DNA of 64,000 bases, taken from the NCBI RefSeq assembly GCF_032854445.1, contig NC_088300.1, forward strand, positions 79,957,084-80,021,083, written 5' to 3'. Source of the DNA: Liolophura sinensis. Its lineage: Eukaryota; Mollusca; Polyplacophora; Chitonida; Chitonidae. Below, piece by piece: positions 1-43,620 of the stretch. The translations under genes and the position numbers were made by a program. The notes beneath the pieces were generated by a model. The model made no database searches and was not told the DNA's origin. It saw nothing but the letters and a program-made list of their open reading frames with translations. Positions within the stretch are counted from its first letter, which is position 1. The number at the start of each line of letters is the position of its first letter.

Positions 1-82
1 CAGAAAAATACAGCATTAAACCTCAAAACCTACTACCATGCTCACTGACAAAAAGATCCTGCCTCAATCATGCACTCTGACC

Positions 83-13576: not shown

Positions 13577-16500
13577 ATGGGTCGAAAGACATTTTGTAAG
13601 CTGACCACAACTGGTAATAAACGGTATTATCTTCTGGCAGATATAGAGGAAGATGGGAAGGAAGGGATACACTTGACTTTATCTGATGGCGAATCTGCAT
13701 GGAGCAGAGAATGTAAGAGAATATAATGTTCCATTTTTCTGTGTGCTACTAAACAGAAAGCATTATATTTCTTTGCAGGGGTATAGATCACTATTGTTCT
13801 TCTGTAATCACTTACACTGACGTTAATATGTTTTTTTTCTCAACAAGAATTGCTTTGTCTACTTGTAGCCTACCTCATAGCAACAGGATTTACAATTTGT
13901 CTTCCTTCAATGCTGCGTACAATTCTGTGTAAATTATTATAATGGAACATTATATTGAATTTTTTATTGAATTGAATCTTTTTTTATACATGGCTGCACG
14001 ATAATGAGTTCAAGATCGTGTTCTAGTTTCATACTGTTCCATGTTGTTTTTGACCAAATTGTTGCTGGCTTAATTTTGTTCTTGGACTTTGACAATTTTC
14101 CTCACTTTTTTGTGAAAATGGTTTTAATTATTTAATTAAATGAAACTTGGGTCATAACTTCTTCCTGTGACGTTACATACAGTTTTGGGCCATTTACAAC
14201 AAAATTATAGTCATTTTTGTTTCATCATACAGTTTGAGCGGCCTTTTTTTATTGGGTTGTTCTGAATGCAACATCATACATGGCATGACTGCTTCATCAA
14301 GGCAAGATACAGACCAAGTCTGAATTTTGGGCCTTTTTTATTTTCAACATGATACCCAAAATGAAAGACATATACTTGTCGCTGTTATTCTGACATCTAT
14401 GGGGCAAAAATGACACTTCCATACTGTTTGCTAATTTGTTTTATAATTTGAAAACTGTATAATGTGTATGTAATGTAATGTTTAGCTAACATTTGGATTT
14501 TACCAGTTATGTAGAGAGCTACATGTATGTGTATGACACACAGAAGATCCATATGTGAGCTAAAGCTTTCATGTTCTGATCTTTTTAGTAACTGGGGACG
14601 ACCTCGAAGATCTCAGTAAAAAACTGAAAATGAAGTTCTCAGATTTTGTCTCAGAAACTGTCAAAGCATTGACAAGAGAAAATGTAGGAAACATGAACTT
14701 CTTGTACGAGGTGAAAACCTGGAAGGATGACGAAATGGAGTTGAAATGGAAAAAACATATGGCCATGGATGATATTAAGGTGAGTTAAATAGCCGTTTGT
14801 TTTACCAGTTTATTTGTTCCTTATTTACCCCTCTTCCAATTTTTGCCTGGGGTATTCCATCCATTTGCCTGTCTGTTCATTTTCTTGATAGCACTCCTGA
14901 ACAGTTTAGTCCAAATGAATGACATGGAAAAAACATAAGGCCATGGATGATATTAAGGTCAGTTAAATAGCTGTTGTTTGTTTGGCCATTTTATTTGTTC
15001 CTGATTTACCCGTCAGCCAGTTTTGGCCCGGGGTAATCCATCCATCTGCCGGTCTGTTCCTGGACATTTTAGTTCTAGCTGACCAATGTTACATCACACT
15101 TGCACTTTGTCCATGTTGTCATGGTGAAGAACCATAGTGATTTTCAAAGACCTTAAGCTAGTGTTTCAAGGTAATTAGGCTCTTAAATTTTGTGAAATTC
15201 TTGTAATGACGATATACCTTGAAATTTGTTTCCAATGATGTACATGAACAGTCACTTTTCCATGACCAATTTTATCCATCAGGCCTCTTCCCACTAAACA
15301 TCCTCTCTGTTGAACAGTTGAAGTGGTGTTACTGGTTTACCAAACCTCTACATGTACCACCCATAATTCACTCTCTTGATTTCCACCGACCTTGCCATAT
15401 TTTCACGTCCATTTATCCATTTTTTTCCCAAGCATTTTGAACAATTGGACCCATTTCCTTGCATATGCAATCTCTTGAACAGTTGAGCTAAAACTGACAC
15501 TTAAACATAAGGAAGATTTTCATTGGAATTGTTCCATTTTTCAAGGTCATTGAGGTCATTAATATTAACTTTATGAAAGGCTTGTGAACATTAATTCTTG
15601 AATGTGACCAATGTGTACTAAACTCGCATCTAGGCATGTAGATCTGCCCTATTAAATTTCAGTCGACAATTAACGACTTGCCTAGCTGTCCCTTGCATTG
15701 TTCAACTCAGATTCACCCAACTTTAAGTTTGTCATGAGATAAAACCCTATTTTTGGATTTTTATTAAGTACATTTGTTCATACTGCAATAAGGATACACT
15801 CTGAAACTGACAGAAACTTTGCAATGACCTAAAACCAAGAAGTTTTCACCTCTAAGAAGATATTCTCATGTTTGATGTTTTCAACTTCTTCATGCTCGTC
15901 AACAAGATCCGTAAATACCTGTTAAATAAGCTGAGGGATTTTGCGTGTATTGCTCGCTATTTTTTGCTTGGTACAATATAAGTAACACTTTGATCATCTC
16001 TTCTGTTAGTTGATGTTGACGGTTTCCCCCTTGTTGACTTTGTTACAGTTCCAGCTTGGGAGAGTGGTGTTACAACCTGTGTCTGATGCCTCTGTCTTTA
16101 CCAGAGATGTGTTTAGTTTCTGTATTGATAACATGGTGGATTTAAAAAACAAAATCAGCAGTCTGGAAACTGATAATCAGAGGTTATCACAAGAAAGGAG
16201 CCAAGCACTGAAGGTAAGCGGAGAGGGAAAAGGACACAGACTTCAGGTATTGTAGTCCATGTGAGTTTACAGTGTAAGCTAAAACTGACATAGTCCATGC
16301 AAGATGACACTGGCATAGGCCATGAAAGATATCGCTGGCATAGTACATGCAAGATTACACTGGCATAGTCCATGCAAGAGTACACTAGTATAGGCTATGC
16401 AAGATGACACTGGCATAGGCTATGCAAGATGATGCTGTTATAGTCCATACAAGATGACACTGACATAGTCCATGCAAGATGACATTAGCATAGTCCAGGA

Positions 16501-19500
16501 AAGATATCACTGGCATAGTACATGCAAGAGTACACTGGCATAGTACATGCAAGAGTACACTAGTATAGGCCATGCAAGATTACACTGGCATAGTCCATGC
16601 GAGGTGATGCTGGTATAGTCCATACAAAATGACACTGGCAAAGTCCATACAAGGTGATGCTGGTATAGTCCATACAAGATGACACTGGCATAGTCCATGC
16701 GAGGTGATTCTGGTATAGTCCATACAAAATGACACTGGCATAGTCCATGCGAGGTGATGCTGGTATAGTCCATACAAAATGACACTGGCATAGTCCATGC
16801 GAGGTGATGCTGGTATAGTCCATACAAAATGACATTGGCATAGTCCATGCAAGGTGATGCTGGTATAGTCCATACAAAATGACGCTGTCATAGTCCATGC
16901 GAGGTGATGCTGATATAGTCCATACAAAATGACACTGGCATAGTCCATGCGAGGTGATGCTGGTATAGTCCATACAAAATGACACTGGCATAGTCCATGC
17001 AAGGTGATGCTGGTATAGTCCATACAAAATGACATTGGCATAGTCCATGCAAGGTGATGCTGGTATAGTCCATACAAAATCACACTGGCATAGTCCATGC
17101 GAGGTGATGCTGGTATAGTCCATACAAGATGACACTGGCATAGTCCATACAAAATGACACTGGCATAGTCTATGCAAGGTGATGCTGGTATAGTCCATAC
17201 AAGATGACATTGGCATAGTACATGCAAGGTGATGCTGGTATAGTCCATACAAGATGACACTGGCATAGTCCATACGAGGTGATGCTGGTATAGTCCATAC
17301 AAGATGACACTGGCATAGTTCATGCAAGGTGATGCTGGCATAGTCCATACAAGATGACATTGGCACACTCCATGCGAGGTGATGCTGGTATAGTCCATGC
17401 AAGATGACATTGGCACAGTCCATGCGAGGTGATGCTGGTATAGTCCATGCAAGATGACATTGGCACAGTCCATGCGAGGTGATGCTGGTATAGTCCATAC
17501 AAAATGAGACTGGAATGTAGGAGCATGTAAGTCTCAGTTTTGTCTATGGTTATTATAATGCTGATTTAACTATATACAGGTAACAGGTTCAATGACATGA
17601 ATTTTTGTGTAAAAATGTTCTAATATGTTGCAAGGTTTGATGCATTATATGGTGAACTCACTTTTTTTTTTGCTCTATGTATCTGATTTTATTTGACAGA
17701 GACTTGACAAATGTGTGGCAGCTAAGGAAGAAATAGAGAAAGAACTTTACTCAAAGGTACTTTGTGATACTAAGTTTAGAATTTCTTCTCGTTCAAAGTG
17801 TATTTTGTCCTGTAATAAACTGTTTTCTCACAAACATGAATACAAGTAATGACATATGCAGTTACCTGTAGATATGTTGGAAAAAAACTTCTTTTGCTAG
17901 GATCTTGGATCTGGGATGTTTGCTAGGTGGTCTTGTGTGGGCGCTCCACTAAGGATATTTAAAATAAAGAAACCTTGTTCTTTTCCAGTTTGTTGCGGTG
18001 TTGAATAGTAAGAAAGAAAAGATCCAAGAATTAAGAAAAGAGAGTGAGTATGTAAGACTTGTTTCAATACCTTTGTCTTGTATTTATGAAGGTTCATATA
18101 CCATTAAGATGTATGGCGCACAGAAAACAAGCGTGATCTTCTGGTTCACACCAGACTGCTAACAATCTTTTCAATTTAATTTAATGGGAAGTTTATGTAG
18201 TGAAGCATTTGTGCATTGTAAAGCTGATGATTAGAGTTATCTGCTCCTGTTGTACGTCAGCATTTTGGTGTATTTCAGTTGAAGAAGGAAGCAGATCAAA
18301 TGGGGCATCAGTTACAGGTCAGTATCTCTCATTGTTAGCCTGAATTGGCACATCATTTAGAACATGGGAATATTTTATCAGTATAATTATAAAGTAGGTC
18401 CTTGTGTATGTTTTGGTTTTAGTGAGATTTGGGTGTTTACAAAAAGCTCTGTCTGGTAATTGCAGAATATGACACGGAATATTACATGACTGTGCTGAAG
18501 TTATTGCATCACATTGATAAAACATTGGGACGAGTGGTCTAGTGGTTGGGAGCACTGGCCTGTCAGGCTCAGACACATCAGGTCCTCGCCTGTTTGAGGG
18601 GCCGTGGTGACTAACCAGTCGGTGATGCTTGTGTGGCCGATTGTACATTGGTTGGAAACCACTTGTCTTCTCCCAATATGATGTGCATGATTGTGAGTGA
18701 CTTGTGGTGAGTTTGGTTTGATAACCTGGTTTCCTCCACTCATAAAACCTGATGTGGATGATTGTGAGTGACTTGTGCTGAGTTTGGTTTGATAACCTGG
18801 TTTCCTCCACTCATAAAACTGACCGCCATAAGTGAAAAATTCACAGGTAAGGCTGTGTAAGTACCAATCATGTTCTTAAATATGAAAAGCGGACAGTTTT
18901 AAAACGTAGCAGAAACTTACATTCCAAGCATGTTTAATTACGAACACTTTGGTGATCAGCTGCTTGGTGTTATACACATACAGATTCTCCCCCCCCCCCA
19001 AGGCCAGTACGTGCAAACAAACATTGTGTACAGTGAGATTGTGGCTGTACACGTACAAATTCTCCTCCCAAGGCCAGTACGTGCAAACAAACATTGTGTA
19101 CAGTGAGATTGTGGCTGTACACGTACAAATTCTCCTCCCAAGGCCAGTACGTGCAAACAAACATTGTGTACAGTGAGATTGTGCCTGTACACGTACAAAT
19201 TCTCCTCCCAAGGCCAGTACGTGCAAACAAACATTGTGTACAGTGAGATTGTGCCTGTACACGTACAAATTCTCCTCCCAAGGCCTGTACGTGCAAACAA
19301 ACATTGTGTACAGTGAGATTGTGGCTGTACACGTACAAATTCTCCTCCCAAGGCCAGTACGTGCAAACAAACATTGTGTACAGTGAGATTGTGGCTGTAC
19401 ACGTACAAATTCTCCTCCCAAGGCCAGTACGTCCAAACAAACATTGTGTACAGTGAGATTGTGCCTGTACACGTACAAATTCTCCCCCCAAGGCCAGTAC

Positions 19501-22500
19501 GTCCAAACAAACATTGTGTACAATGAGATTGTGGCTTTACACGTACAAATTCTCCCCCCAAGGCCAGTACGTCCAAACAAACATTGTGTACAATGAGATT
19601 GTGCCTGTACACGTACAAATTCTCCTCCCAAGGCCAGTACGTCCAAACAAACATTGCGTACAGTGAGATTGTGGCTGTACACGTACAAATTCTCCTCCCA
19701 AGGCCAGTACGTCCAAACAAACATTGTGTACAGTGAGATTGTGGCTGTACACGTACAAATTCTCCTCCCAAGGCCAGTACGTGCAAACAAACATTGTGTA
19801 CAGTGAGATTGTGCCTGTACACGTACAAATTCTCCTCCAAGGCCAGTACGTGCAAACAAACATTGTGTACAGTGAGATTGTGGCTGTACACGTACAAATT
19901 CTCCTCCCAAGGCCAGTACGTGCAAACAAACATTGTGTACAGTGAGATTGTGCCTGTACACATACAAATTCTCCTCCAAGGCCAGTACGTCCAAACAAAC
20001 ATTGTGTACAGTGAGATTGTGGCTGTACACGTACAAATTCTCCTCCCAAGGCCAGTACGTGCAAACAAACATTGTGTACAGTGAGATTGTGCCTGTACAC
20101 GTACAAATTCTCCTCCCAAGGCCAGTACGTGCAAACAAACATTGTGTACAGTGAGATTGTGGCTGTACACGTACAAATTCTCCTCCCAAGGCCAGTACGT
20201 GCAAACAAACATTGTGTACAGTGAGATTGTGCCTGTACACATACAAATTCTCCTCCCAAGGCCAGTACGTCCAAACAAACATTGTGTACAGTGAGATTGT
20301 GGCTGTACACGTACAAATTCTCCTCCCAAGGCCTGTACGTGCAAACAAACATTGTGTACAGTGAGATTGTGGCTGTACACGTACAAATTCTCCTCCCAAG
20401 GCCAGTACGTCCAAACAAACATTGTGTACAGTGAGATTGTGGCTGTACACGTACAAATTCTCCTCCCAAGGCCAGTACGTGCAAACAAACATTGTGTACA
20501 GTGAGATTGTGGCTGTACACGTACAAATTCTCCTCCCAAGGCCTGTACGTGCAAACAAACATTGTGTACAGTGAGATTGTGGCTGTACACGTACAAATTC
20601 TCCTCCAAGGCCAGTACGTGCAAACAAACATTGTGTACAGTGAGATTGTGGCTGTACACGTACAAATTCTCCTCCCAAGGCCAGTACGTGCAAACAAACA
20701 TTGTGTACAGTGAGATTGTGGCTGTACACGTACAAATTCTCCTCCCAAGGCCAGTACGTCCAAACAAACATTGTGTACAGTGAGATTGTGGCTGTACACG
20801 TACAAATTCTCCTCCCAAGGCCAGTACGTGCAAACAAACATTGTGTACAGTGAGATTGTGCCTGTACACGTACAAATTCTCCTCCCAAGGCCTGTACGTG
20901 CAAACAAACATTGTGTACAGTGAGATTGTGCCTGTACACGTACAAATTCTCCTCCAAGGCCAGTACGTCAAACAAACATTGTGTACAGTGAGATTGTGGC
21001 TTTACACGTACAAATTCTCCCCCCAAGGCCAGTACGTCCAAACAAACATTGTGTACAATGAGATTGTGCCTGTACACGTACAAATTCTCCTCCCAAGGCC
21101 AGTACATGCAAACAAACATTGTGTACAATGAGATTGTGCCTGTACACGTACAAATTCTCCTCCCAAGGCCAGTACGTGCAAACAAACATTGTGTACAGTG
21201 AGATTGTGGCTGTAACACGTACAAATTCTCCTCCCAAGGCCAGTACGTCCAAACAAACATTGTGTACAGTGAGATTGTGCCTGTACACGTACAAATTCTC
21301 CTCCCAAGGCCAGTACGTCCAAACAAACATTAACAAACATTGTGTACAGTGAGATTGTGGCTGTACACGTACAAATTCTCCTCCCAAGGCCAGTACGTGC
21401 AAACAAACATTGTGTACAGTGAGATTGTGGCTGTACACGTACAAATTCTTTTCCCAAGGCCAGTACATCCAAACAAACATTGTGTACAGTGAGATTGTGG
21501 CTGTACACGTACAAATTCTCCTCCCAAGGCCAGTACGTGCAAACAAACATTGTGTACAGTGAGATTGTGGCTGTACACGTACAAATTCTCCTCCCAAGGC
21601 CAGTACGTGCAAACAAACATTGTGTACAGTGAGATTGTGGCTGTACACGTACAAATTCTCCTCCCAAGGCCAGTACGTGCAAACAAACATTGTGTACAGT
21701 GAGGTTGTGGCTGTACACGTACAAATTCTCTTCCCAAGGCCAGTACGTGCAAACAAACATTGTGTACAGTGAGATTGTGGCTGTACACGTACAAATTCTC
21801 CTCCCAAGGCCAGTACGTGCAAACAAACATTGTGTACAGTGAGATTGTGGCTGTACACGTACAAATTCTCCTCCCAAGGCCAGTATGTCCAAACAAACAT
21901 TGTGTACATTGAGATTGTGGCTGTACACGTACAAATTCTCCTCCCAAGGCCAGTATGTCCAAACAAACATTGTGTACAGTGAGATTGTGGCTGTACACGT
22001 ACAAATTCTCCTCCCAAGGCCAGTACGTGCAAACAAACATTGTGTACAGTGAGATTGTGGCTGTACACGTACAAATTCTCCTCCCAAGGCCAGTACGTGC
22101 AAACAAACATTGTGTACAGTGAGATTGTGGCTGTACACGTACAAATTCTTTTCCCAAGGCCAGTACATCCAAACAAACATTGTGTACAGTGAGATTGTGG
22201 CTGTACACGTACAAATTCTCCTCCCAAGGCCAGTACGTGCAAACAAACATTGTGTACAGTGAGATTGTGGCTGTACACGTACAAATTCTCCTCCCAAGGC
22301 CAGTACGTCCAAACAAACATTGTGTACAATGAGATTGTGGGTGTACACGTACAAATTTTCCTCCCAAGGCCTGTACATCCAAACAAACATTGTGTACAAA
22401 GAGATTGTGGGTGTTCACATACAAATTCTCTTCCCAAGGCCAGTACATCCAAACAAACATTGTGTACAAAGAGATTGTGGGTGTTCACATACAAATTCTC

Positions 22501-25500
22501 CTCCCAAGGCCAGTACATCCAAACAAACAAACATTGTGTACAAAGAGATTGTGGCTGTACACGTACAAATTCTCCTCCCAAGGCCAGTACATCCAAACAA
22601 ACATTGTGTACAGTGAGATTGTGGCTGTACACGTACAAATTCTCCTCCCAAGGCCAGTACATCCAAACAAATAATGTGTACAATGAGATTGTGGCTGTAC
22701 ACATACAAAATCTCCCCCCAAGGCCAGTACGTCCAAACAAACAATGTGTACAATGAGATTGTGGCTGTACACATATGAACTCTCCCCCCAAGACCTGTAT
22801 GTGCAAACACTGTGCGTCATGAGATTGTGGCTGTACACATACAAAATCTCCCCCCAAGGCCAGTACGTCCAAACAAACAATGTGTACAATGAGATTGTGG
22901 CTGTACACATATGAACTCTCCCCCCAAGACCTGTATGTCCAAACACTGTGCGTCATGAGATTGTGGCTGTACACATACAAAATCTCCCCCCAAGGCCAGT
23001 ACATCCAAACAAATAATGTGTACAATGAGATAGCACAGTTGGTAGAGCATCTGCTTCGGGAGCAGTAGATCCAGGATCAATCCTGGGTCGAGTCACACCT
23101 AAGACTTTAAAAGAGGAAGTTGGAACTTCCTCGCTTGGCGTTCAGCATGAAGGGGATAGTGCAACGACTGGTTGACCCGTAATCAGTATAATGGCTCGGG
23201 CGGGGCGGCTTACTTACCTTCGGTAAGTCGTCACAGTGAAACGCACTAAACAAAAGAGCGGTGGTAATCCGTCCTGCAACAAGGAGATACATTACATACA
23301 CCCTTCGTCGATTCCTTCGTCGTAATATGAAAAATTGTTGAGCACAACGTTAAACCCCAAGCACTCACTCACTCAATCACTCCGCCCAAGGCCAGTACGT
23401 CCAAACAAACATTGTGTACAAAGAGATTGTGGCTGTACACGTACAAATTCTCCCCCCAAGGCCAGTACGTCCAAACAAACATTGTGTACAATGAGATTGT
23501 GCCTGTACACGTACAAATTCTCCTCCCAAGGCCAGTACGTGCAAACAAACATTGTGTACAATGAGATTGTGGCTGTACACGTACAAATTCTCCTCCCAAG
23601 GCCAGTACGTCCAAACAAACATTGTGTACAGTGAGATTGTGCCTGTACACGTACAAATTCTCCTCCCAAGGCCAGTACATCCAAACAAACAATGTGTATT
23701 AAGAGATTGTGGTTGTTCACTTTTAGATTCTCCGCCAAAGGCCAGCACATCCAAACAAACAGCAACGGGAGGTGGAGAAAGTCCAGCACATAGCCTCCAG
23801 GACAGAAGGTGAGCTTCAGGTTATATCAGCCTCAGACATGTAGGGTAGAAATTCTGTTGGGTTTTTGGCTGATTTGTGTACTCCATGCTGACACGGCACG
23901 TGTAGTTTGGACATCCTAGGCACCAATATCAGTGGTATTCCTTTGTGTGAAATGAATACATTTCATCCAAAGATAATTGTAAACAGAATGTCTGCCAATC
24001 CTGCAGTTAACATTTTGATCATTTTTACGATGTTAAAGGGAAGACACTTGGTCAAGGCGAACCCCAAAATGACCGCTCCTGTTAGCAAAGCCATCCAGAA
24101 ATGTCTGACTGTTGCTGTTAGTAAGCTCATCATTTACACAGCCATCCAAAATGCTTGACTGCTGCTGTTAGTAAGCTCATCATTTACACAGCCATCAAAA
24201 ATGCTTGACTGCTGCTGTTAGTAAGCTCATCATTTACACAGCCATCCAAAATGCTTGACTGCTGCTGTTAGTAAGCTCATCATTTACAAAGCCATCAAAA
24301 ATGCTTGACTGCTGCTGTTAGTAAGCTCATCATTTACAAAGCCATCAAAAATGCTTGACTGCTGCTGTTAGTAAGCTCATCATTTACACAGCCATCAAAA
24401 ATGCTTGACTGCTGCTGTTAGTAAGCTCATGATTTACAAAGCCATCAAAAATGCTTGACTGCTGCTGTTAGTAAGCTCATCATTTGCAAAGCCGTCAAAA
24501 ATGTTGACTGCTGCTGTTAGTAAGCTCATCATTTACAAAGCCATCAAAAATGTTTGACTGCTGCTGTTAGTAAGCTCATCATTTACAAAGCCGTCAAAAA
24601 TGCTTGACTGCTGCTGTTAGTAAGCTCATCATTTGCAAAGCCGTCAAAAATGCTTGACTGCTTGCTGTTAGTAAGCTCATCATTTACAAAGCCATCAAAA
24701 ATGCTTGACTGCTGCTGTTAGTAAGCTCATCATTTACAAAGCCATCAAAAATGCTTGACTGCTGCTGTGAGTAAGCTCATCATTTGCAAAGCCATCAAAA
24801 ATGCTTGACTGCTTCTGTTAGTAAGCTCATCATGTACAAAGCCATCCAGAAATGTTTGACTGCTGCTGTGAGTAAGATCATCATTTGCAAAGCCATCAGA
24901 AATGCTTGACTGCTGCTGTTAGTAAGCACATCATTTACAAAGCCATCAAAAAAGTTTGACTGCTGCTGTGAGTAAGCTCATCATTTACAAAGCCATCAAA
25001 GTGTTTGACTGCTGCTGTTAGTAAGCTCATCATTTACAAAGCCATCAAAAATGCTTGACTGCTGCTGTTAGTAAGCTCATCATTTACAAAGCCATCAGAA
25101 ATGCTTGACTGCTGCTGTTAGTAAGCTCATCATTTACAAAGCCATCAAAAATGCTTGACTGCTGCTGTTAGTAAGCTCATCATTTACACAGCCATCCAAA
25201 ATGCTTGCAAAGTTTACTCCAAGGGGTTTTATTCTTCATTTTTTTATTTTTCCTAGTGTCTGATTCTATAGGTCTTCTTTGTTTCCATACATGTATGTGA
25301 ACATCGGATTAAAATGTTTGATTTTATGATGTATGTTTGTTTTATTTCCAGTAATGAAGACACAACAGATGATGAGAAGGTATTAATAGAATATTATATA
25401 CATGTAGTGGTTTATTGAGGTGTTTTTTATGTCGTACTCAAGAACATTTCTTTTTGAGTGTATGAAACTGAGTGAGTACATGTCACAGGTCACACACACA

Positions 25501-28500
25501 TTTGTACATGACAAATGTCCTAGCTTGTGAACTGACTCCAACCATTAGAACTACATTTAGTTGATTAAAGAATGCTCTTATACTTTAAAAAGTGATGTGA
25601 TTCTGGTACTGGGTTTGATATTGATAACACTATTTGGAACACTGTTTCCTCTTGAGTATTGTGCAGAAATATTCTGATACCAGCTGCTGCTCATAACTTC
25701 ATTTGAACACACATTTAAGTCAGAGAGTAAACTATTCTTTACTATTAGTTCACATCTACGCAGTGTAAGCCACTGACAGGTATACATGTGTATACATCAG
25801 TGTATTTTATGAGTTTTTATTTAAATTTTTCAGTATGTTTTTGTTTTCTTCACACAACCACTACATTGCATATGCACATGAAATGACGAATCTATCAATA
25901 TTGCCACAGACTCCTCCCACAAAGAGAAGAAGAGGTGGGGCTAGTGTCAGAAGGATCGAGAGCGACTCCTCCCTGGTGTTGGATGATGGGGATGACATAG
26001 AGTCTACAGCAGCATCCAGACGGTATCCAAAACTTCACTACATTTCTGCACATACATGTAAACCTCAATTGTTTTTAATTAACCTGCATGGGAGATACTT
26101 GTCAATACTTCTGTAGCAGCCATTGGAAGAAGTTGAATGTTGTGTTTTTGTTCCAGCAGCGAATTGTAAGAACTTCATATTTTCCATGTATTGTATTAGC
26201 TGATTGCATGGTGTCTTGATTTTGATTGCTCTAGTCCCAGACGACAGGCAAGTGGTGGAAGGAAGCAGACGCCATCCAAGCCAGTTCTCCCTAGGGTCAG
26301 GTCAGGGGGCAGGGGAGAGGCCACAGACAGGTAAGATTTGTCACTCTGATCATATATTATGACAAGTGGGGTGTGAGTGGGTGGGTGAGATATGGGAGGG
26401 AGCTGACTGGCAAGGTACGAGTCGCGCACATTGTCAAGTGAAAGGATGTCAAAGTTTTGAAATCTTTGAGGAGATTTTCCAAGGAGTTTTGGTACCTAAA
26501 AGCAGCAACAAACAACCAAAGACAAGCTGGGGTGTGTTAAAAAAGTATGACAGCAACAAGACCTGTATGGAAATTCCAGATCATTACAAACCTTAATGAA
26601 TTCCTGCACGTTGCTGTTGAACTCTGCTACATTTAAGTGTGATAACTTGCACTCTAACTGTATTTTAGAATTATGATAATCTTTCCTCATCTGAGTTTTG
26701 CAACAACTGCATAATAATAATTTATGCCCATCAGTTAAGCTCCTTGAAAAGGCATCTGATTATATGCTCCATCTGACTTCAGTTGTGATTTTTAGCAAAA
26801 ACATTTTCTTTCATAATTTGATGAAAAAAATTCAGCATAAAGCATGTAAGCTGAAATAGTCTTGGTCAAGCTAGTCATAATCTGAACATTTATTTAGTTC
26901 AAGTACTGGTAGCACACCTTACATTTGCAAATAGAATATTAATGTTTTTTTCTAGATATGGCCCTGAAAAGTCATCATTTTTCTTGCTGTAAGACCATTT
27001 CTCAGGTGCAGAAGATTGCACCTTCAGTTTGAAACGTTACATATTCAAATGTTTAGTAACATCCTGTAAAACATGTTTTTCTCTACAATTTGTCCAAAGA
27101 AGAAAAGAAAAAAGAAAAAAACAGCATTTTATTCAGGACCCATTAAATACTCCTAGGACCCACTTAAAATGGCCACATGATCCACCAAATACCTGGTGAC
27201 ATCACTGGTGATGGCTGCTGTAGACACGTCAGTTTTAGAAATAATGAGAATCAAAATCATGAGGACAATGCTGATAACAAAGAATAGACTAAGAATAGCG
27301 TCTTTTTCTCTGATTAGGTAGTACTCGTCAGATAAAAGCCAGTTCTCCTCTGCTGAAATTTGGAGGAGTACTGTACTGCCACAAAAATGTATTCATCTGG
27401 AGTACTGAAGTGGGGTATGTGTGGGTGGGTGAGACATGGGAGGGAGCAGACACCATCCAGTCCTCCTCAGGGTGAGGTCAGGGGGCAGGGGGGAGGCTAC
27501 GGACAGGTAAGTTTCCCCCCCCACCCCTGATCATATATGATGACAAATGGGGTATGTGTGGGTGGGTGAGATATGGGAGGGAGCAGACACCTTCCAAGCT
27601 AGTCCTCCCCAGGGTGAGGTCAGGGGGCAGGGGGGAGGCTACAGACAGGTAAGGTCCCCCCCCCCCCTCCGATCATATGTGATGACAAATGGGGTATGTG
27701 TGGGTGGGTGAGACATGGGAGGGAGCGGACACCTTCCAAGCCAGTCGTCCCCAGGGTGAGGTCAGGGGGCAGGGGGGAGGCTACAGACAGGTAAGGTCCC
27801 CCCCCCCCTCCGATCATATGTGATGACAAATGAGGTATGTGTGGGTGGGTGAGACATGGGAGGGAGCAGACACCATCCAGTCCTCCCCAGGGTGAGGTCA
27901 GGGGGCAGGGGGGAGGCTACAGACAGGTAAGCCCCCCCCCCCCCTTCCCCGATCATATATGATGACAAATGGGGTATGTGTGGGCTGGTGAGATATGGGA
28001 GGGAGCAGACACCTTCCAAGCCAGTGCTCGCCAGGGTGATTTCAGGGGGCAGGGGGAGGCTACAGACAGGTGAGGTCTGACCCCCTAATCATATGTGAGT
28101 GGGATATTAAAGTGTATTTGCAACCAACAGAAAATCTATTCATTTTCATTGAGGTAGGAGAGCGGGAAAGCCAGGTGGTATCAGTGAAGTGGAATTTTTG
28201 ACTTTTGTGACAATGTTTATATTGTCATGTATATCATGCATAATCTCTATACCCGTGTGTATGTATGTCTCTATACCCGTGTGTATGTATGTCTCTATAC
28301 CCGTGTGTATGTATGTCTCTATACCCGTGTGTATGTATGTCTCTATACCCGTGTGTATGTATGTCTCTATACCCGTGTGTATGTATGTCTCTATACCCGT
28401 GTGTATGTATGTCTCTATACCCGTGTGTATGTATGTCTCTATACCCGTGTGTATGTATGTCTCTATACCCGTGTGTATGTATGTCTCTATACCCATGTGT

Positions 28501-31500: not shown

Positions 31501-32940
31501 AAACAGACGGACAGGAAAACCTGGAAAGTTATTAAGGTGAATTATAAAGGTGAAATAAATCTTCAATCCACCTTTTCGTTCTGGAGATATTAAGCTGACA
31601 TGGTCATCTTCCTCTGAAATAGCATTGATCAGTCAGACAGAGGTTAATATCGGCCCATAAATTTGGGACATATTGGTAATTAATAGTTCTGACAAAATCA
31701 TAAATTCGACATGTGACTCACTGTATGCTTGATGAGGTGTGTCCATATTTAATATGCTGTACGTTCCTTTCTCCATAGACGCTCCAGCATGCAAAAGTCA
31801 GGTTCAGGAGCCTCAATAGTTCTGACAAAATCATAAATTCTGACTTGTGACTCACTGTGTGCTTGATGAGGTGTGTCCATATTTAATATGTTGTGTGTTC
31901 CTTTTTCCATAGACGCTCCAGCATGCAAAAGTCAGGTTCAGGAGCCTCAATAGTTCTGACAAAATCATAAATTCTGACTTGTGACTCACTGTGTGCTTGA
32001 TGAGGTGTGTCCATATTTAATATGCTGTGTGTTCCTTTTTCCATAGATGCTCCAGCATGCAAAAGTCAGGTTCAGGAGCCTCAATAGTTCTGACAAAATC
32101 ATAAATTCGACATGTGACTCACTGTGTGCTTGATGAGGTGTGTCCATATTTAATATGCTGTACGTTCCTTTCTCCATAGACTCTCCAGCATGCAAAAGTC
32201 AGGTTCAGGAGCCTCAATAGTTCTGACAAAATCATAAATTCTGACTTGTGACTCACTGTGTGCTTGATGAGGTGTGTCCATATTTAATATGTTGTGTGTT
32301 CCTTTTTCCATAGACGCTCCAGCATGCAAAAGTCAGGTTCAGGAGCCTCAATAGTTCTGACAAAATCATAAATTCTGACTTGTGACTCACTGTGTGCTTG
32401 ATGAGGTGTGTCCATATTTAATATGCTGTGTGTTCCTTTTTCCATAGATGCTCCAGCATGCAAAAGTCAGGTTCAGGAGCCTCAATAGTTCTGACAAAAT
32501 CATAAATTCTGACTTGTGACTCACTGTGTGCTTGATGAGGTGTGTCCATATTTAATATGCTGTGTGTTCCTTTTTCCATAGACGCTCCAGCATGCAAAAG
32601 TCAGGTTCAGGAGCCTCAATAGTTCTGACAAAATCATAAATTCTGACTTGTGACTCACTGTGTGCTAGATGAGGTGTGTCCATATTTAATATGCTGTGTG
32701 TTCCTTTTTCCATAGACGCTCCAGCATGCAAAAGTCAGGTTCAGGAGCCTCAATAGTTCTGACAAAATCATAAATTCTGACTTGTGACTCACTGTATGCT
32801 TGATGAGGTGTGTCCATATTTAATATGCTGTGTGTTCCTTTTTCCACAGACGCTCCAGCATGCGAAAGTCAGGTTCAGGAGCCTCAAACAAGTCTGCAGC
32901 AGAAGTTGTAGATGCAGATGATCTATTGGACGATTTGTGA
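13577..32940 (+). CDS. XRCC4: DNA double-strand-break repair protein XRCC4 (NHEJ scaffold), 11 coding exons, 350 aa
   Basis: XRCC4 dimerises through a coiled coil, binds DNA ligase IV and XLF, and acts in nuclear end joining. Coding exons: 13577-13712, 14589-14779, 16049-16213, 17700-17756, 17989-18043, 18279-18317, 23727-23808, 25352-25379, 25910-26022, 26235-26330, 32850-32940. All have GT-AG borders, and the sum is 1053 nt, in frame to TGA. Residues 1-~113 form the head domain (THLSDGESAW-type strand near 33-42, then WKKHMAMDDIKFQLG). A long helix with RLDKCVAAKEEIEKELYSKF (165-184) aligns with the human FEKCVSAKEALETDLYKRF region. SNEDTTDDEK (242-251) matches the human CK2 site that binds FHA domains. 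KRRR (256-259) is a likely NLS. The C-terminus DADDLLDDL resembles human DLFDEI. The exon 5 donor (18043 rather than 18051) was chosen because only it keeps exons 6-11 in frame. Introns 6 and 10 are swollen by arrays. Confidence 0.93.
14924..15060 (+). repeat. Tandem duplicate of the XRCC4 exon 2 / intron 2 junction
   Basis: This stretch repeats 14746-14880 at an offset of 178 bp. It covers the last 34 bases of exon 2 (ATGGAAAAAACATA...GATATTAAG) and about 100 bases of intron 2. The copy reads KHKAMDDIK instead of KHMAMDDIK, and its donor is GTCAGT instead of GTGAGT. It has no exon 5' part and no clear acceptor, so it should stay intronic. It provides a second, weaker donor downstream of the real one. 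Confidence 0.85.
16255..17515. repeat. 25/50-bp minisatellite in XRCC4 intron 3
   Basis: Units of 25 bp sharing CTGGTATAGTCCATAC / CTGGCATAGTCCATGC alternate, so the later part has a 50-bp dimer period. It starts about 40 bp after exon 3 and ends about 185 bp before exon 4. The left part (16255-16600) is more irregular, with substitutions such as GATATCACTGGCATAG. The minus-strand frames of up to 312 aa are repeat translations. I see no exon homology in the unit. Confidence 0.95.
18523..18838 (+). mobile_element. SINE-like element with tRNA-type head and internal duplication
   Basis: It begins with GACGAGTGGTCTAGTGGTTG, an A-box-like tRNA head. It ends with GGTTTCCTCCACTCATAAAA and CTGACCGCCATAAGTGAAAA, a diverged relative of the 3' domain of the other SINEs here. 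A segment of about 70 bp beginning GATGTG(C/G)ATGATTGTGAG occurs twice in tandem (about 18678 and 18750). It lies in XRCC4 intron 6, just before the 70-bp array. Confidence is lower than for the other SINEs because the B box is poor. Confidence 0.65.
18965..23030. repeat. 70-bp satellite in XRCC4 intron 6, left block
   Basis: About 58 units of 70 bp, with cores TGTACACGTACAAATTCTCC and CCAAGGCCAGTACGTGCAAA and the word ACAAACATTGTGTACAGTGA. Units near the right end are more diverged (CACATACAAAATCTCC, GACCTGTATGTGC). No minus-strand frame contains a stop in the consensus, which creates overlapping frames of up to 816 aa. Because 70 is not a multiple of 3, each frame runs through all three translations, which marks these as artefacts. 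Part of the unit is homologous to the start of XRCC4 exon 7 (see findings). Confidence 0.95.
23031..23387 (+). mobile_element. tRNA-derived SINE inserted inside the 70-bp array
   Basis: A tRNA-like head (TAGCACAGTTGGTAGAGCAT, then GGATCAATCCTGGGTCGAGT) is followed by ACTTTAAAAGAGGAAGTTGG, a conserved GGCGTTCAGCATGAAGGGG block, and the tail GTTAAACCCCAAGCACTCAC with TCACTCACTCA. It interrupts the 70-bp satellite between a CAATGAGA and a CCCAAGGCCAG sequence. The array therefore existed before the insertion. It differs from the SINE type at 11376. A functional tRNA gene is unlikely because of the mismatched stem and the long SINE body. Confidence 0.85.
23388..23762. repeat. 70-bp satellite in XRCC4 intron 6, right block, running into exon 7
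   Basis: About five further 70-bp units follow the SINE. The last, diverged unit contains the acceptor CACTTTTAG (ending 23726) and the first 36 bases of XRCC4 exon 7 (23727-23762). That exon segment aligns with the AATTCTCCTCCCAAGGCCAG...CAAACAAACA part of the satellite unit. Array and exon therefore overlap here. Confidence 0.85.
24121..25205. repeat. 50-bp minisatellite in XRCC4 intron 7
   Basis: About 21 units of 50 bp with the core TTGACTGCTGCTGTTAGTAA followed by GCTCATCATTTACAAAGCC. Point variants and small indels (CTTGCTG, TGTGAG, TTGCAAAG) distinguish units. It lies between exons 7 and 8. I see no resemblance to either exon and no coding content. Confidence 0.95.
27441..28085 (+). 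repeat. ~141-bp array of partial XRCC4 exon 10 copies with their donor sites
   Basis: Five tandem units. Each contains a sequence like the 3' two thirds of exon 10 (real exon 26235-26330), ending at 27506, 27648, 27790, 27926 and 28069. Each is followed by GTAAG or GTGAG, a C-run and the intronic words GATCATATATGATGACAAAT and GGGTGGGTGAGATATGGGAG, which also flank the real exon. Each copy keeps CAGGGTGAGGTCAGGGGGCA and CTACAGACAG. The original upstream acceptor and the first 20 or so exon bases are missing. A CCTCCCCAG inside most copies could act as an acceptor. Confidence 0.88.
28243..31400. repeat. 24-bp minisatellite in XRCC4 intron 10, about 116 units plus a 27-bp variant tail
   Basis: The unit is 24 bp, with core CTCTATACCCGTGTGTATGT. 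From about 31030 a 27-bp form with GACTCCTGTCTCTATACCCA takes over. 24 and 27 are multiples of three and the unit has no stop in several frames. Open frames of over 1000 aa therefore appear on both strands with 8-residue periodicity. The mirror frames, low complexity and intronic position argue against a gene. A distinctive TATTTCTCTATACCCATG / GAGTCCTGTCTC block recurs at 28745, 29732 and about 30560-30640. Confidence 0.96.
31690..32849 (+). repeat. ~134-bp array carrying eight decoy copies of the XRCC4 terminal-exon acceptor
   Basis: Eight copies precede the real terminal exon. Their exon-like starts are near 31779, 31913, 32047, 32180, 32314, 32448, 32582 and 32716, and the real exon is at 32850. 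Each copy has the pyrimidine tract TTCCTTTTTCCATAG (or TTCCTTTCTCCATAG), then exon sequence beginning ACGCTCCAGCATGCAAAAGT up to GGAGCCTCA. It then jumps to ATAGTTCTGACAAAATCATA. The real exon has CACAG instead of CATAG and continues with AACAAGTCTGC. In the XRCC4 frame every copy reaches a TAA soon after the jump. Confidence 0.92.
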
Positions 32941-34455: not shown

Positions 34456-35265
34456 TTATGTGATCCGTGTACATTGTATAAATACAAGTGATTCGTGGAC
34501 ATTGTATAAATACAAGTGATCTGTGGACATTGTATAGATACAAGTGATCCGTGGACATTGTATAAATACAAGTGATCCGTGTACATTGTATAAATACAAG
34601 TGATCCGTGGACATTGTATAAATACAAGTGATCCGTGGACATTGTATAAATACAAGTGATCCGTGGACATCGTAGAAATACAAGTGATCCGTGGACATCG
34701 TATAAATACAAGTGATCCGTGGACATTGTTTAAATACAAGTGATCCGTGGACATTGTATAAATACAAGTGATCTGTGGACATTGTATAAATACAAGTGAT
34801 CCATGGACATCGTTTAAATACAAGTGATCCGTGCACATCATATAAATACCAGTGATCCGTGGACATTGTTTAAATACAAGTGATCCATGCACATCGTATA
34901 AATACCAGTGATCCATGCACATTGTTTAAATACAAGTGATCCATGCACATCGTATGATACAAGTGATCCATGGACATTGTATAAATACAAGTGATCCATG
35001 TACATTGTATAAAGACAATTGATCCATGGACATCGTTTACATACAAGTAATCCATGTACATTGTATACATACAAGTGATCCATTCACATCGTATAAATAC
35101 AAGTGATCCATGGACATCGTTTAAATACAAGTGATCCATGCACATCGTATAAATACAAGTGATCCATGTACATTGTATACATACAAGTGATCCATTCACA
35201 TCGTATACAGACAATTGATCCGTGGACATCATTTAAATACAAGTGATCCGTGGACATTGTATAAA
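34456..35265. repeat. 28-bp minisatellite with a TATAAATA word in most units
   Basis: About 29 units of 28 bp, with core GTGATCCGTGGACATTGTAT then AAATACAA. TATAAATAC is kept in most units, and variants have TTTAAATAC or TATACATAC. It lies between XRCC4 and calpain. The minus-strand frames of 108-162 aa are repeat translations. Confidence 0.95.
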
Positions 35266-40000: not shown

Positions 40001-43000
40001 GGTGTTCAGATATAAGTGGACACGAGTTGACTACACTTAGACAGCAGATGACTTTAAACTTCATCCAGTCCACGTTTGATATGAAGAAGACTGTCTTTAC
40101 TTGAAATTGTGAGCTAGTTAGCATTATCAGGAAGTGATGATGGTTGGAAGTCAGGTGTTTCACTCACCTGTGGGTTGCTGAGGAACGTGGCGGAGTGTTT
40201 CTCCGATCCACCATTTCGCCCATTCTGAGCCCAGCGGCCGTGAAGAAGAGCCTCGCTATAGGTTTTCTTCATACTGAAGAAAGACGTGTTCACAAAATGG
40301 CAAATATCCACGTTGGTGAAATTGGAGATAAAGTCTGAGAAAGACATCCTGTGGAATAAAGGAAACACTGATCTGAACGCCGATGTCACTACTGGAGTCC
40401 CAACGTTTCTGTGCCAAAAGACAGAGATTAATATATGTAAAGAATGCACAGCTTTTGCTTTATGAATACCTAGGAAGTTATTGGAGCTTGGTAGGCCTAT
40501 TTACCAGAATTCGGCTTCTTGCTGAAATCGGAGTCCAAGTTTGTCCCTTTCGTTAGGATTCATTGAGTTCCACTCCTTTGATCTGATTGCAGAGAAGACG
40601 TAAAACATGTCACATCATATATGGTATTTCATTTCGGTGATATTTCACTGGTCGAGACTGCTAAAGTATCCTGATCACTTGCGTAATTACACGTTGATGA
40701 CTACTATAGTCTAAGAATGAACCACAGATGAACAATATACTCTGTATCGTCCGACATTCGAGTACCACTCGTTAATGGGCGTTCAAAGTCGACAGTCGCA
40801 ATTAAGACCCATTTCCAAAACAACTTGAAATATCCGTTTGCAAAGGAACATATGATAATATAATAGCTAGCAATAGGTAAAAGAGAAGTTGTGTATAGAC
40901 ATGTGTCCAGTGCAGAGCACTCACCCTGAAGACCATGCCCCTGTCCACACGTCCGTGCCCCAGGGGTTGTGTAATCTGACCATGTTCAGTTCGGACGCCC
41001 CCACCGCACCTTGCATGGCCTTGGCTACTTTGATGGATTTGGCGGCAGTGACGACATACCCGTGACCATTGATCAAACCGTGGGACGTCGGCTGACCAAT
41101 CATGTTGGCAGGGCCCTATAAGACATAAGGTAAAGAGATTCGTATGCAGTGTAACAATGAGAGATCGAACAGCGATTTATACACGCCGGACATGATATAA
41201 TAACTTCCAAGTGTAGTTACACGGAACATGAGATAAAGCTTCTGCAGTCTCCATTGTATACAAATGATGTACATCAGAGAAATTAGCAGGCCTGTAGTGA
41301 TAACTGAAAAAGCCACAGATTGCGTACATGTGTCAATCACCATGAATTGCCATGGGAAAGATATACATATACAGGTGTGTGTAAGACATGGGGATATTAA
41401 CTCGTCAGAAATATACACGCAACACTGAGCAGGTCAGAATTGGGCCTTCAAGAAGCACCTGATCAGCAGATTAAAAACAAACCATAATAAGCCATTCGAT
41501 CATTGTGACGTTTGATGCCTCAGGATCTGAGCGCAGGGAAAGCCTCACTCATGTTAAGAACATGTTATGCTTGTACACACAGTACACGAGTGCACGAATG
41601 AACGGACCTGGATGTGACACGTGACCATGGCACTGGAATCCTTGGCAGCACAGAGTTTGCTGAACAGGTTTGTCTTCTCATTCTCGTCCGCGAAGTCATG
41701 TTTGTCCAGGCAGAGAGACTGTGGAACCCCGCCGGTGAAGTCCACCATGGCATCAGCCACGCGACCAGTTCTCAAAGATTCATAATCACCATACAATCTG
41801 CCGGATAAGAAAGGGACAGGATCAACATCAAACACGTGTGGTCAACTGTGGTCAACTCAGGACAGACATACGCACTCTTTACATTGTGGTCAACTTAGGA
41901 CAGACATACGCACTCTTTACATTGTGGTCAACTTAGGACAGACATACGCACTCTTTACATTGTGATAACCTGCGGACAGATATACTCATTCTTTACATTG
42001 TGGTTATGTTCGGAAAGACTTACGCACTCTTTACATTGTGGTTAACTTCGGACAGATATACGCACTCTTTACACTGTGGTCAACGTCGTAGAGATATCTG
42101 TATTTTTTGTACCTAGTTAGTCGTTTGGTCGTTCTGGATGTATACCAAGCAAACTACTCTTCTTCTAGTCCTTATTCATGTCTAATGAAGGTTGATTCTA
42201 TTTTTGTATTTTGATGCCGTCGAAGTTTTGCCGTTTCTGTCATGTCTGAAAACTCATTTTGAACACGGAGTGATCAGGTATAAGGGCTTAATTGTCGAAC
42301 GAAAACAGTAATTATAAAATATAAAAGTGCTCACACCAAACCAGTAATTATAAACTATAATAGTTCTCACACGAAAGCAGTAATTATAAACTATAATAGT
42401 TCTCACACGAAAGCAGTAATTATAAACTATAAAAGTTCTCACACGAAAGCAGTTAATATAAAATATGAAAGTTCTCACACCAAAACAGTAATTATAAAAT
42501 ATAAAACCTCTCACTTGGCATATGCTTTTTCCAGAAGAGCACTCCAGAATTCGTTTCTGGACTTTGACTGACAGAAAATCAATTTCCCATCTTTAGTAGG
42601 CAATCGATCATCGACAACGACTTCCAGCCATTCCCCAAACCTCCAAAACTGGAAGTGAAATATGCCGGCGTAGACGTTCTTCTCATCCCATTCTTGATCC
42701 TTGGCTCCTGGCAACACCTGACAGCAACAACAGTCGCGCTATTACTTAGACATAGGTCTATACATTCACAAGCGCGCCTCAGCTAAATGTTTTCACAAAA
42801 AGGTTTGTATTTGATACATTGACTAGATAACAGTCAGCTGATGGCGTTATGTCTGTCAACAAACCACAACATGAGAAATTATTCCACCGTCACAAGTATA
42901 TGCACATGCTTAGTTTTACTTCATTATACTATAGTAGTCCCTTCGTACCTTCTGAAGAAGTTTTGGCTCCTGTGCTAGAGTCGTGCAGGCGGTGACAAAC

Positions 43001-43444
43001 CAGCAGTTGCCAAGCTCACCCTCCCGGATATCATCACAGCTGACGCCTTCAACAATCAGCTTGGGTGCCTTACAGATTTCCTGGAACAACCATAGTGGCA
43101 ATAAGTGGTTTCGGGGCAAGCACTGCTTGTATGGGATCCATAGAACTCAAGTCAATTGTTAGTTACTATTGCTGACGGAGTGTAAAAACATCTTTTCTGT
43201 TGAGCAGCATTTAAAACATTTCTTCACGTTAAATCAAGCAATTGAACTTATTGGGAAACCACAAATAAACACTATCTTGGCACAGTTCTACCTTTGGTCG
43301 CTTCCACTCGATATCCTTATCAACCTGACTGAAGAAGATAGACTTGTTGCTGGCCGGAAACTCCGGGTCCTCAAACAGAATGCCTTTCTTCGTGCAGTCG
43401 GCCTTCAATGAACTGTACTTCTGGTTCCGAAATCGCCGAGACAT
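37055..43444 (-). CDS. CAPN5: Calpain-5/6-like cysteine protease with C-terminal C2 domain, 12 coding exons, 625 aa
   Basis: Intracellular calcium-regulated cysteine protease. Exons in transcript order: 43444-43292, 43080-42949, 42717-42515, 41797-41608, 41115-40925, 40582-40505, 40348-40168, 39747-39628, 38882-38686, 37935-37823, 37606-37470, 37237-37055. All have GT-AG borders, and the sum is 1878 nt, in frame to TAA. The start [17 protein letters not shown] aligns with the CAPN5 N-terminus. The catalytic core holds Cys77 (GELGNCWFV), His244 (INGHGYVVT) and Asn276 (RLHNPWG). [20 protein letters not shown] and [16 protein letters not shown] are typical. A beta-sandwich domain follows (to about 490), with GRYVLIPTT and [12 protein letters not shown]2 domain (about 500-625) has [27 protein letters not shown] and [15 protein letters not shown]. 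There are no penta-EF hands, as in CAPN5/6. All three catalytic residues are present, unlike CAPN6, so activity is likely. The length is near the 640 aa of human CAPN5. Confidence 0.92.
38325..38395 (+). other. tRNA-like / SINE-head remnant
   Basis: TTGTGGTAGAAGCGCAGACT followed by CATTGGTTCAAACTCCAATA looks like an A-box and a B-box (GGTTCAAACTCC) at tRNA-like spacing. It lies inside a calpain intron. No cloverleaf could be confirmed by eye. It is most likely a SINE remnant. Confidence 0.35.
39355..39460 (+). mobile_element. SINE 3'-end fragment (same family as 11376)
   Basis: Contains GGTTTCCTCCCACCATAATG, CTGGCCGCCATCGTATAAGT and AAAACACCAATCAAATAAAT with an A-rich tail. Only the 3' domain is present and the tRNA head is missing. 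It lies in the calpain intron between exons 8 and 9. Confidence 0.8.
41835..42090. repeat. 38-bp minisatellite in calpain intron 3
   Basis: About six units of 38 bp, with core CACTCTTTACATTGTGGTCA and CTTAGGACAGACATACG. It lies just upstream (in transcript sense) of the exon 4 acceptor at 41798. The last CTGTGGTCAACT words come within about 30 bases of that exon. No exon bases are included. Confidence 0.9.
42290..42514 (-). repeat. 36-bp minisatellite abutting the calpain exon 3 donor
   Basis: About six units of 36 bp, on the plus strand AGCAGTAATTATAAACTATA then ATAGTTCTCACACGA. In transcript sense each unit carries GTGTGAGAAC followed by TTTTATA. The genuine donor at 42514 (GTGAGAGGTTTTATA) is the first, diverged unit. 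The array therefore begins at the real 5' splice site. Confidence 0.85.
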
Positions 43445-43620
43445 TCTCACAGTTTACTGACAAAACAGAAATAGTAAAGGTGATATGAGCTACAAATCGC
43501 CGAGACATTCTCACAGCTGATTGACAAAACAGAAATAATAAAGGTCATATGAGCTACAAATCGTTGAGACATTCTCACAGCTTACTGACCAAAACAGAAA
43601 CAGTGAACGTCACATCGTGA
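43420..43620 (-). repeat. 64-bp triplication of the calpain start-codon region
   Basis: Three tandem copies of a ~64-bp unit containing, in transcript sense, a 3' splice site (TTTTGTCAG or CAATCAG), CTGTGAGAATGTCTC and the first codons of calpain. ATGs lie at 43444 (real), 43508 and 43572. The two extra ATGs are each 64 bp apart and so out of frame with the real one. The real start is the copy nearest the rest of the coding exon. Confidence 0.85.

Follow-up and report, generated by a model that had tools for sequence, protein, structure and literature searches.

The window analysed here, a 64-kb stretch of DNA from the chiton Liolophura sinensis, contains a gene for XRCC4 on the + strand, with exons named E1 to E11, and a calpain gene on the - strand. 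A reading-frame check indicated that XRCC4 exons E1-E6 and E8-E11 join in frame, and the resulting model matched PF06632 and PF21924 in Pfam and had XRCC4 chains as its top PDB matches. The calpain model is an in-frame join of 11 exons and matched PF00648, PF01067 and PF00168, and no tRNA genes were found in a scan of the 64-kb window. Exon edges of both genes are spanned or adjoined by repeated sequence, as detailed in Table 1.

Table 1. Exons, repeats and dispersed elements at the XRCC4 and calpain junctions (window positions; a slash marks the splice junction).
Feature	Position	Strand	Details
XRCC4 exon 2	14589..14779	+	donor GATATTAAG/GTGAGT
Exon 2 boundary duplication, original	14742..14878	+	38 exonic and 99 intronic bases
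Exon 2 boundary, intronic copy	14920..15059	+	donor copy GTCAGT at 14958
70-base array upstream of exon 7	18997..23031	+	57.6 copies (TRF)
Dispersed SINE-sized element interrupting the 70-base array	23032..23379	+	genome matches
Remainder of the 70-base array	23380..23761	+	adjoins exon 7 acceptor; copies without AG
XRCC4 exon 7	23763..23808	+	reading frame
XRCC4 exon 10	26235..26330	+	donor ACAGACAG/GTAAGA
Diverged copy of exon 10 array unit	26256..26407		82% identity
Dispersed element separating exon 10 from its array	26420..27400 (about)	+	genome alignments
Array of exon 10 tail, donor and intron start	27411..28077	+	unit about 142, 4.8 copies, five GACAG/GT
Array of intron end, acceptor and exon 11 start	31682..32887	+	unit 134, 9 copies
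XRCC4 exon 11, terminal	32850..32940	+	TGA end
36-base array from the first calpain intron base	42299..42514	-	6 copies; GTGAG donor repeated
Calpain exon 3	42515..42717	-	
64-base array over exon 1 start codon region and presumed acceptor	43430..43612	-	2.8 copies

The donor of XRCC4 exon 2 has a single copy, placed by alignment 178 bases downstream; the two segments are 86% identical across 140 columns, and the GTGAGT of the real donor has become GTCAGT in the copy. In the exon 10 array, the five donors returned by a GACAGGT search score 6.8-8.7, compared with 7.2 for the real donor, while a scan without a GT requirement recovered four copies, all of them with GT (4/4), and a stricter scan recovered one. 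The element standing between exon 10 and this array aligns at 65 other places, spread over many contigs; the longest of these alignments takes in almost the full query at 71% identity, and the others reach 67-97%. At exon 11, the AG is kept in 8/8 upstream copies; all eight inner copies read CATAG and the edge copy reads CACAG, and this last acceptor of the array is probably the real one. Splicing to one of the inner copies would, by computation, end the protein 19 residues into exon 11, versus 30 normally. A genome search that passes over very common words found the exon 10 unit only at its own locus and gave no match elsewhere for the exon 11 unit, which rules out dispersed satellites and indicates that both units therefore arose in place.

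The reading frame was used to pick the acceptor of XRCC4 exon 7 (AACAAACAG/CAACGG). This site is weak, scoring -1.0, and an AG at its position was sought in the aligned copies of the 70-base array and found in 0/49. Exon 7 is thereby ruled out as a copied acceptor, the array merely adjoining it, and its listing as a case in the preliminary description was a miscount. The element within this array (23035-23375) has at least 39 other genome matches at 89-91%. In calpain, the exon 3 array starts at intron base 1 and copies no exonic sequence, only the GT; GTGAG is kept in 5/5 copies, which score from -0.2 to 0.8 against 3.5 for the real donor. The start-codon region of calpain exon 1 has two more copies; an AG lies in register in one of them, the other has a CAG that is 4 bases out of register, and the site copied there is a putative acceptor. 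Altogether, the six junctions first described as sharing one pattern come down to XRCC4 exons 2, 10 and 11 and calpain exon 3 (for GT only), with calpain exon 1 joining them if its presumed acceptor is accepted.

The same structures occur at other loci of this genome. To sample other conserved gene families, we took 28 loci (40 pieces, 289,927 bases), picked by the number of exon matches and by size, not by repeats. Exons were placed by Pfam matches and splice scores, using 47 of 50 Pfam rows (three in long single open frames were dropped), 22 of 24, 37 of 81 and 35 of 109, and the junctions used were 92 of 94 at 47 exons, 116 of 118 at 59 and 61 of 70 at 35. Junctions scoring under -1.5 were left out, as were the acceptors of first coding exons in the third set, and the donors CCT3 1045 and MYO_C1b 5800 were assigned manually. 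Joined exons of CCT3, CCT5 and myosin-5 aligned at equal lengths with PDB chains of CCT gamma (109 on 109 residues), CCT epsilon (103 on 103) and myosin Va (95 on 95), respectively. In the genic DNA sampled, TRF arrays account for about 13%, against 0.08% given as 'Other (simple repeat, microsatellite, RNA)' and 14.04% as unclassified in the published repeat table (PMC11068029).

Arrays touch 8 of the 269 sampled junctions (3%) and the splice site itself is copied at seven of the eight, in line with the earlier expectation of many pseudo-splice sites in this genome. Three touched junctions lie in the chaperonin gene CCT3 (two donors and one acceptor) and one each in CCT5, myosin-5 and two other myosin loci; XRCC4 is therefore not special, and the link once suspected with its role in end joining does not hold. 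The repeated unit spans the boundary in XRCC4 exons 2, 10 and 11, CCT5, CCT3 and the myosin loci, whereas at a tRNA-synthetase acceptor it does not. Both boundary types are hit, with acceptors in XRCC4 exon 11, CCT3 and myosin-5 and donors in XRCC4 exons 2 and 10, CCT5, CCT3, MYO_C1b and MYO_C3. The myosin-5 acceptor has 50 copies upstream, 47 of them with AG, and donor 7427 of CCT3 has ten, all with GT and scoring the same as the real donor. GT is likewise kept in 4/4 copies of the MYO_C3 donor, with scores equal to that of the edge copy, in 5/5 at MYO_C1b and in 6/6 at CCT5, where GTGAAT replaces GTGAGT in three. The main scan, in which three junctions had no detected copy, gave 10/10, 47/50, 8/9, 8/8, 5/5 (twice), 4/4 and 4/5 copies per junction with GT or AG; most copies retain these bases, and there is therefore little sign of selection destroying them. 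However, every copy at XRCC4 exon 11 and calpain exon 3 is weaker than the real site, and these weaker copies, together with the GTGAAT of CCT5, could reflect mild counter-selection.

These arrays are very probably minisatellites of the type known in amphioxus as mirages, born at random, surviving only where the mRNA is unchanged and leaving the exon-proximal site to be chosen by exon definition. Short tandem duplications would arise throughout this repeat-rich genome through replication slippage or unequal exchange, blind to splice sites; a duplicated segment spanning an exon edge includes the splice site in its copy, as the units described above show. The boundary copy may persist only if the exon-proximal site is still spliced and the mRNA remains the same, after which the array would be free to grow in the intron, where GT or AG persists in most copies, in several arrays at real-site strength. 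The exon-proximal donor or acceptor would be chosen because splicing treats each exon as a unit, pairing the nearest sites on its two sides, as homology and published splicing work suggest; the available text of one such study describes splice-site pairing by proximity across the exon (PMC9225289). The exon-proximal copy is thus predicted to be the one used, in keeping with the equal-length PDB alignments of CCT3, CCT5 and myosin-5 and with the shortened protein that an inner XRCC4 exon 11 copy would give.

All 12 array-junction contacts, window included, fall no further than about one unit from the edge of the array that faces the exon, but exon continuity forces such placement. The real site at the array edge and the growth always into the intron, which the preliminary description had presented as a rule, match the 12 contacts but do not constitute an independent finding, since a duplicated exon edge leaves the spliced mRNA intact only when splicing takes the copy nearest the exon, and protein homology, by which exon ends were placed, picks out that same copy. 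The accompanying proposal that copies are tolerated only where they are intronic is supported and probably correct.

The strongest competing explanation is that tandem duplications have genuine hot spots of birth at junctions, with paused transcription, R-loops or base-composition steps among the conceivable causes, and that arrays are seeded there preferentially, as had been proposed for this locus. Touches exceed the number expected under uniform founding, with eight versus 4.39 in the samples (269 junctions and 73 arrays) and four versus 2.13 in the window alone, and arrays meet the junction within about 12 bases at calpain exon 3 and at the first acceptor and first donor of CCT3. However, the excess in the samples is not significant (P=0.078), with a ratio of seen to expected of 1.8 (95% interval 0.8-3.6), and should be read knowing that three of the eight touches come from CCT3 and that exons missed by Pfam remain in the denominator of random placement, which slightly lowers the expectation. 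The touch criterion was fixed once the CCT set had been seen but ahead of retrieving the second and third sets, which gave four touches versus 2.84 expected. At the interim count of the first two sets there were eight versus 3.66 (P=0.033), and the third set, then added, contributed 0 versus 0.73; across five test settings the sample P ranged from 0.037, at a TRF score of at least 200, to 0.17. Besides, the overlap between array and exon is very uneven, as under random placement: at one extreme the array stops 7 bases short of the exon, and at the other 115 of 124 bases overlap. These counts do not establish preferential seeding and a real twofold preference is possible, but as an account of the arrays we consider hot spots improbable.

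A function for the arrays as clustered alternative splice sites that yield protein isoforms is much less probable. Donor and acceptor copies are intact and, since the 66-base unit of CCT3 is a multiple of three with an open frame, distal donors of that gene would insert 22 in-frame residues per unit. These inserts would nevertheless land within the conserved chaperonin core, and, of the 12 values for unit length or spacing at the copied junctions, nine (31, 32, 41, 64, 109, 124, 134, about 142 and 178, as against 36, 60 and 66) are not multiples of three. Early stops result from all eight XRCC4 exon 11 copies and from the four myosin-5 copies tried (4/4), and the amphioxus mirages are said, in the available parts of the reports, to leave regular splicing intact (PMC3087553; PMC3902484). 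Assembly artefacts or chance TRF calls can hardly account for the arrays, for although such arrays are difficult to assemble, so that copy numbers could be off, and the amphioxus BflGb6 repeat was called aberrantly assembled in the draft (PMC3087553, in part), point changes distinguish the copies, dispersed elements split one array and part another from its exon, and the genome paper, in the portion available, reports PacBio HiFi reads with a mean of 8.3 kb at 14X (PMC11068029).

The preliminary description knew of no named system of this kind, but the mirages of amphioxus already bear that name (PMC3087553; PMC3902484). According to the accessible text of these papers, boundary-spanning repeats lie in Adh3, in the globins BflGb6 and BflGb9 and in troponin C, with similar repeats in PGBD5, and RT-PCR supports undisturbed regular splicing (PMC3087553). 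The chiton arrays likewise span intron/exon boundaries on donor and acceptor sides, with AG or GT in many copies; they differ in belonging to a mollusc, and so to another phylum, in reaching dozens of copies versus 3 to 6 in BflGb6, and in being known from the sequence of one assembly, whereas amphioxus has RT-PCR and haplotype comparison. The amphioxus repeats are further characterised by length instability, between haplotypes or in the soma, and by concerted evolution within the array that spares the edge copy; in the chiton, the inner XRCC4 exon 11 copies (CATAG) differ from the edge copy (CACAG), and those of CCT3 donor 7427 and MYO_C3 score as the edge copy does. In the human IFI6 (6-16) gene (Turri 1995), a minisatellite also supplies repeated splice donors, but two downstream units are said to be used, giving three mRNAs, while the distal chiton copies are sequence features. 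Partial texts describe two further parallels: in potato RdRp, a tandem genomic duplication across an intron/exon boundary provided extra splice sites and a new intron arose, whereas the chiton copies sit within existing introns (PMC4974935); and in human segmental-duplication genes, TRF revealed minisatellite expansion at exon-intron boundaries in many genes, where, among paralogs of recent origin, the repeats alter exon/intron structure and alternative transcripts often occur (PMC2812944). Among the literature matches listed, with limited coverage of subscription papers, none reported mirages from any mollusc; an abalone paper describes an intronic 27-base minisatellite, which the text examined does not locate at an exon edge.

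The phenomenon is thus largely real, although the system is not new, and molluscs are a second phylum for mirage-type repeats, with a first frequency in a mollusc of 3% of sampled junctions touched by arrays. The acceptor copies of myosin-5 and the donor copies of CCT3 are natural duplicated-splice-site constructs for studying site choice, and if splicing takes the exon-proximal site alone, then closeness across the exon counts for more than local sequence that is nearly identical between copies. It is doubtful that exon edges are favoured, about twofold or more, as minisatellite birthplaces in this lineage, with introns growing from their ends by splice-site copying and up to dozens of equal-strength sites silenced by exon definition; if they were, this genome would be rich in natural cassettes from which introns could be born and in which nearest-site choice could be tested. 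Overall, the arrays are a trap for gene annotation and candidate raw material for intron gain.

Copied splice sites were clear at four of the six XRCC4 and calpain junctions at which the preliminary description had placed them; the acceptor of calpain exon 1, where two extra copies lie around the start codon (AG in register in one), is a presumed one, whereas the acceptor of XRCC4 exon 7 fails as a case, since the array reaches it and yet AG was found in 0/49 aligned copies. The identities of both genes are backed by Pfam, and that of XRCC4 additionally by PDB sequence matches. At XRCC4 exon 10 the donor GACAG/GT occurs five times in the array, with GT in 4/4 copies under a scan that did not demand it, while the exon 11 acceptor carries AG in 8/8 copies and the donor of calpain exon 3, an exon that is not itself copied, carries GT in 5/5 copies, the copies at these last two junctions all being weaker than the real site. 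The exon 2 donor has a single copy 178 bases away (86% identity over 140 columns). A genome search returned no match elsewhere for the XRCC4 exon 10 and exon 11 units, and thus these arose locally. Between XRCC4 exons 7 and 8 (23808-25352) the frame does not join with the chosen sites, and a small exon may have been missed within the array-bearing intron.

Features of the window and of the sampled loci (window positions unless a locus is named; L006, CCT3 locus)
Feature	Position	Size	Remarks
77-base unit array	77-11279	11.2 kb	146 copies, 94% match; upstream of XRCC4
SINE-sized element	23032-23379	~340 bases	Splits exon 7 array; at least 39 other matches; 4523 first-look candidates
50-base array	24086-25207		XRCC4 intron, exons 7-8
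Dispersed element	26420-27400	~1 kb	Occupies the space separating exon 10 from its array; 65 other alignments, many contigs
CCT3 66-base array	L006 ~1664-2518, minus		
MYO_C1b motor exon, two similar copies	L021 ~5701-5800, 6794-6887		Profile 118-152, 121-152; uncounted
CCT5 donor			Touched
CCT3, two donors and one acceptor			Touched
MYO_C1b donor			Touched
MYO_C3 donor			Touched
Myosin-5 acceptor			Touched
One tRNA-synthetase acceptor			Touched; array ends 7 bases short

The window, in which TRF reported 41 rows, belongs to an assembly of 609.46 Mb in 632 contigs, and the comparison sample comprised 28 further loci from conserved genes with several exons (269 junctions, 73 arrays): nine chaperonin loci (PF00118), a second set of four tRNA-synthetase and seven myosin loci (PF00133, PF00063) and a third of eight neurotransmitter-transporter-family loci (PF00209), the names CCT3, CCT5 and myosin-5 being those of the best PDB matches. 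Arrays covered 9-15% across these three sets of genic loci; a published repeat table gives 'Other (simple repeat, microsatellite, RNA)' as 0.08% (PMC11068029). A junction was considered touched when it lay inside an array or at most 10 bases from its edge, which applied to 8/269 sampled junctions and to 4/44 in the window (XRCC4 exons 7 and 11, calpain exons 1 and 3). XRCC4 exon 10 escaped this criterion because of the inserted element, and exon 2 because TRF does not call its two copies.

The chance expectation came from uniform placement of the arrays, each reduced to a single unit, with placements wholly within, or swallowing, a known exon excluded. Touches numbered 4 vs 1.55 expected in the chaperonin set, 4 vs 2.10 in the second, 0 vs 0.73 in the third and 4 vs 2.13 in the window. 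After two sets the sample stood at 8 vs 3.66 (P=0.033), and after all three at 8 vs 4.39 (P=0.078; 0.037 to 0.17 under other settings), a ratio of 1.82 (interval 0.79-3.59); the second and third sets alone gave 4 vs 2.84. A margin of 30, at which an otherwise uncounted CCT3 donor enters with an array beginning 12 bases into the intron, gave 9 vs 5.98. The proposal that arrays are seeded at junctions is therefore unproven: a modest preference is possible, and none is shown.

Many of the copies at sampled junctions are well preserved. Upstream of the myosin-5 acceptor lie all 50 of its copies (42 within the main array), of which 47 carry AG and 45 score at least as high as the real site. All ten copies of CCT3 donor 7427 score the same as the real one, as do 4/4 at the MYO_C3 donor, and GT is kept in 5/5 at the MYO_C1b donor (four equal to the real site), in 6/6 at the CCT5 donor (three GTGAGT, like the real site, and three GTGAAT) and in 4/5 at the middle CCT3 donor (one at least as strong). 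The CCT3 acceptor has AG in 8/9 copies, six of them at least equal in strength. The copy scan found none at CCT3 donor 1045, MYO_C11 or the tRNA-synthetase acceptor; separately, the MYO_C11 exon 3 donor has an uncounted copy at +64, seen by BLAST only. The duplicated MYO_C1b exon resembles a mutually exclusive pair.

In 12/12 touches the exon-side edge was no more than one unit (plus 15% and 10 bases) from the true junction, in line with the description of growth always into the intron. This position is forced, however, because homology placed the exon ends and only the exon-proximal copy keeps the mRNA unchanged, so it is a consistency check and lends no support to a growth rule. Most likely, tandem duplications would arise at random, those altering the mRNA would be lost and those staying intronic would expand, with the nearest site across the exon being chosen, a rule assumed for chitons. 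Nor do the arrays lack a named counterpart, as had been supposed: the chiton cases share the sequence-level features of mirages, the amphioxus minisatellites spanning intron/exon boundaries. The Adh paper of Canestro from 2002 is reportedly the source cited for mirages, and that of Turri from 1995 is said to deal with human IFI6. Troponin C is added to the mirages, along with similar repeats in PGBD5, in PMC3902484.

The joined exons of CCT3, CCT5 and myosin-5 match PDB CCT gamma, CCT epsilon and myosin Va at equal lengths, from which we infer that the exon-proximal site is probably the one used in these genes. In most cases, splicing at a copy would disrupt the protein: each of the eight XRCC4 exon 11 copies gives 19 residues and then a stop, and the four myosin-5 copies tried reach stops after 10-21 residues. 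Across the CCT3 66-base array the exon frame is open, with 206 residues from the exon start and no stop, and use of a distal donor there would insert 22 residues per unit.
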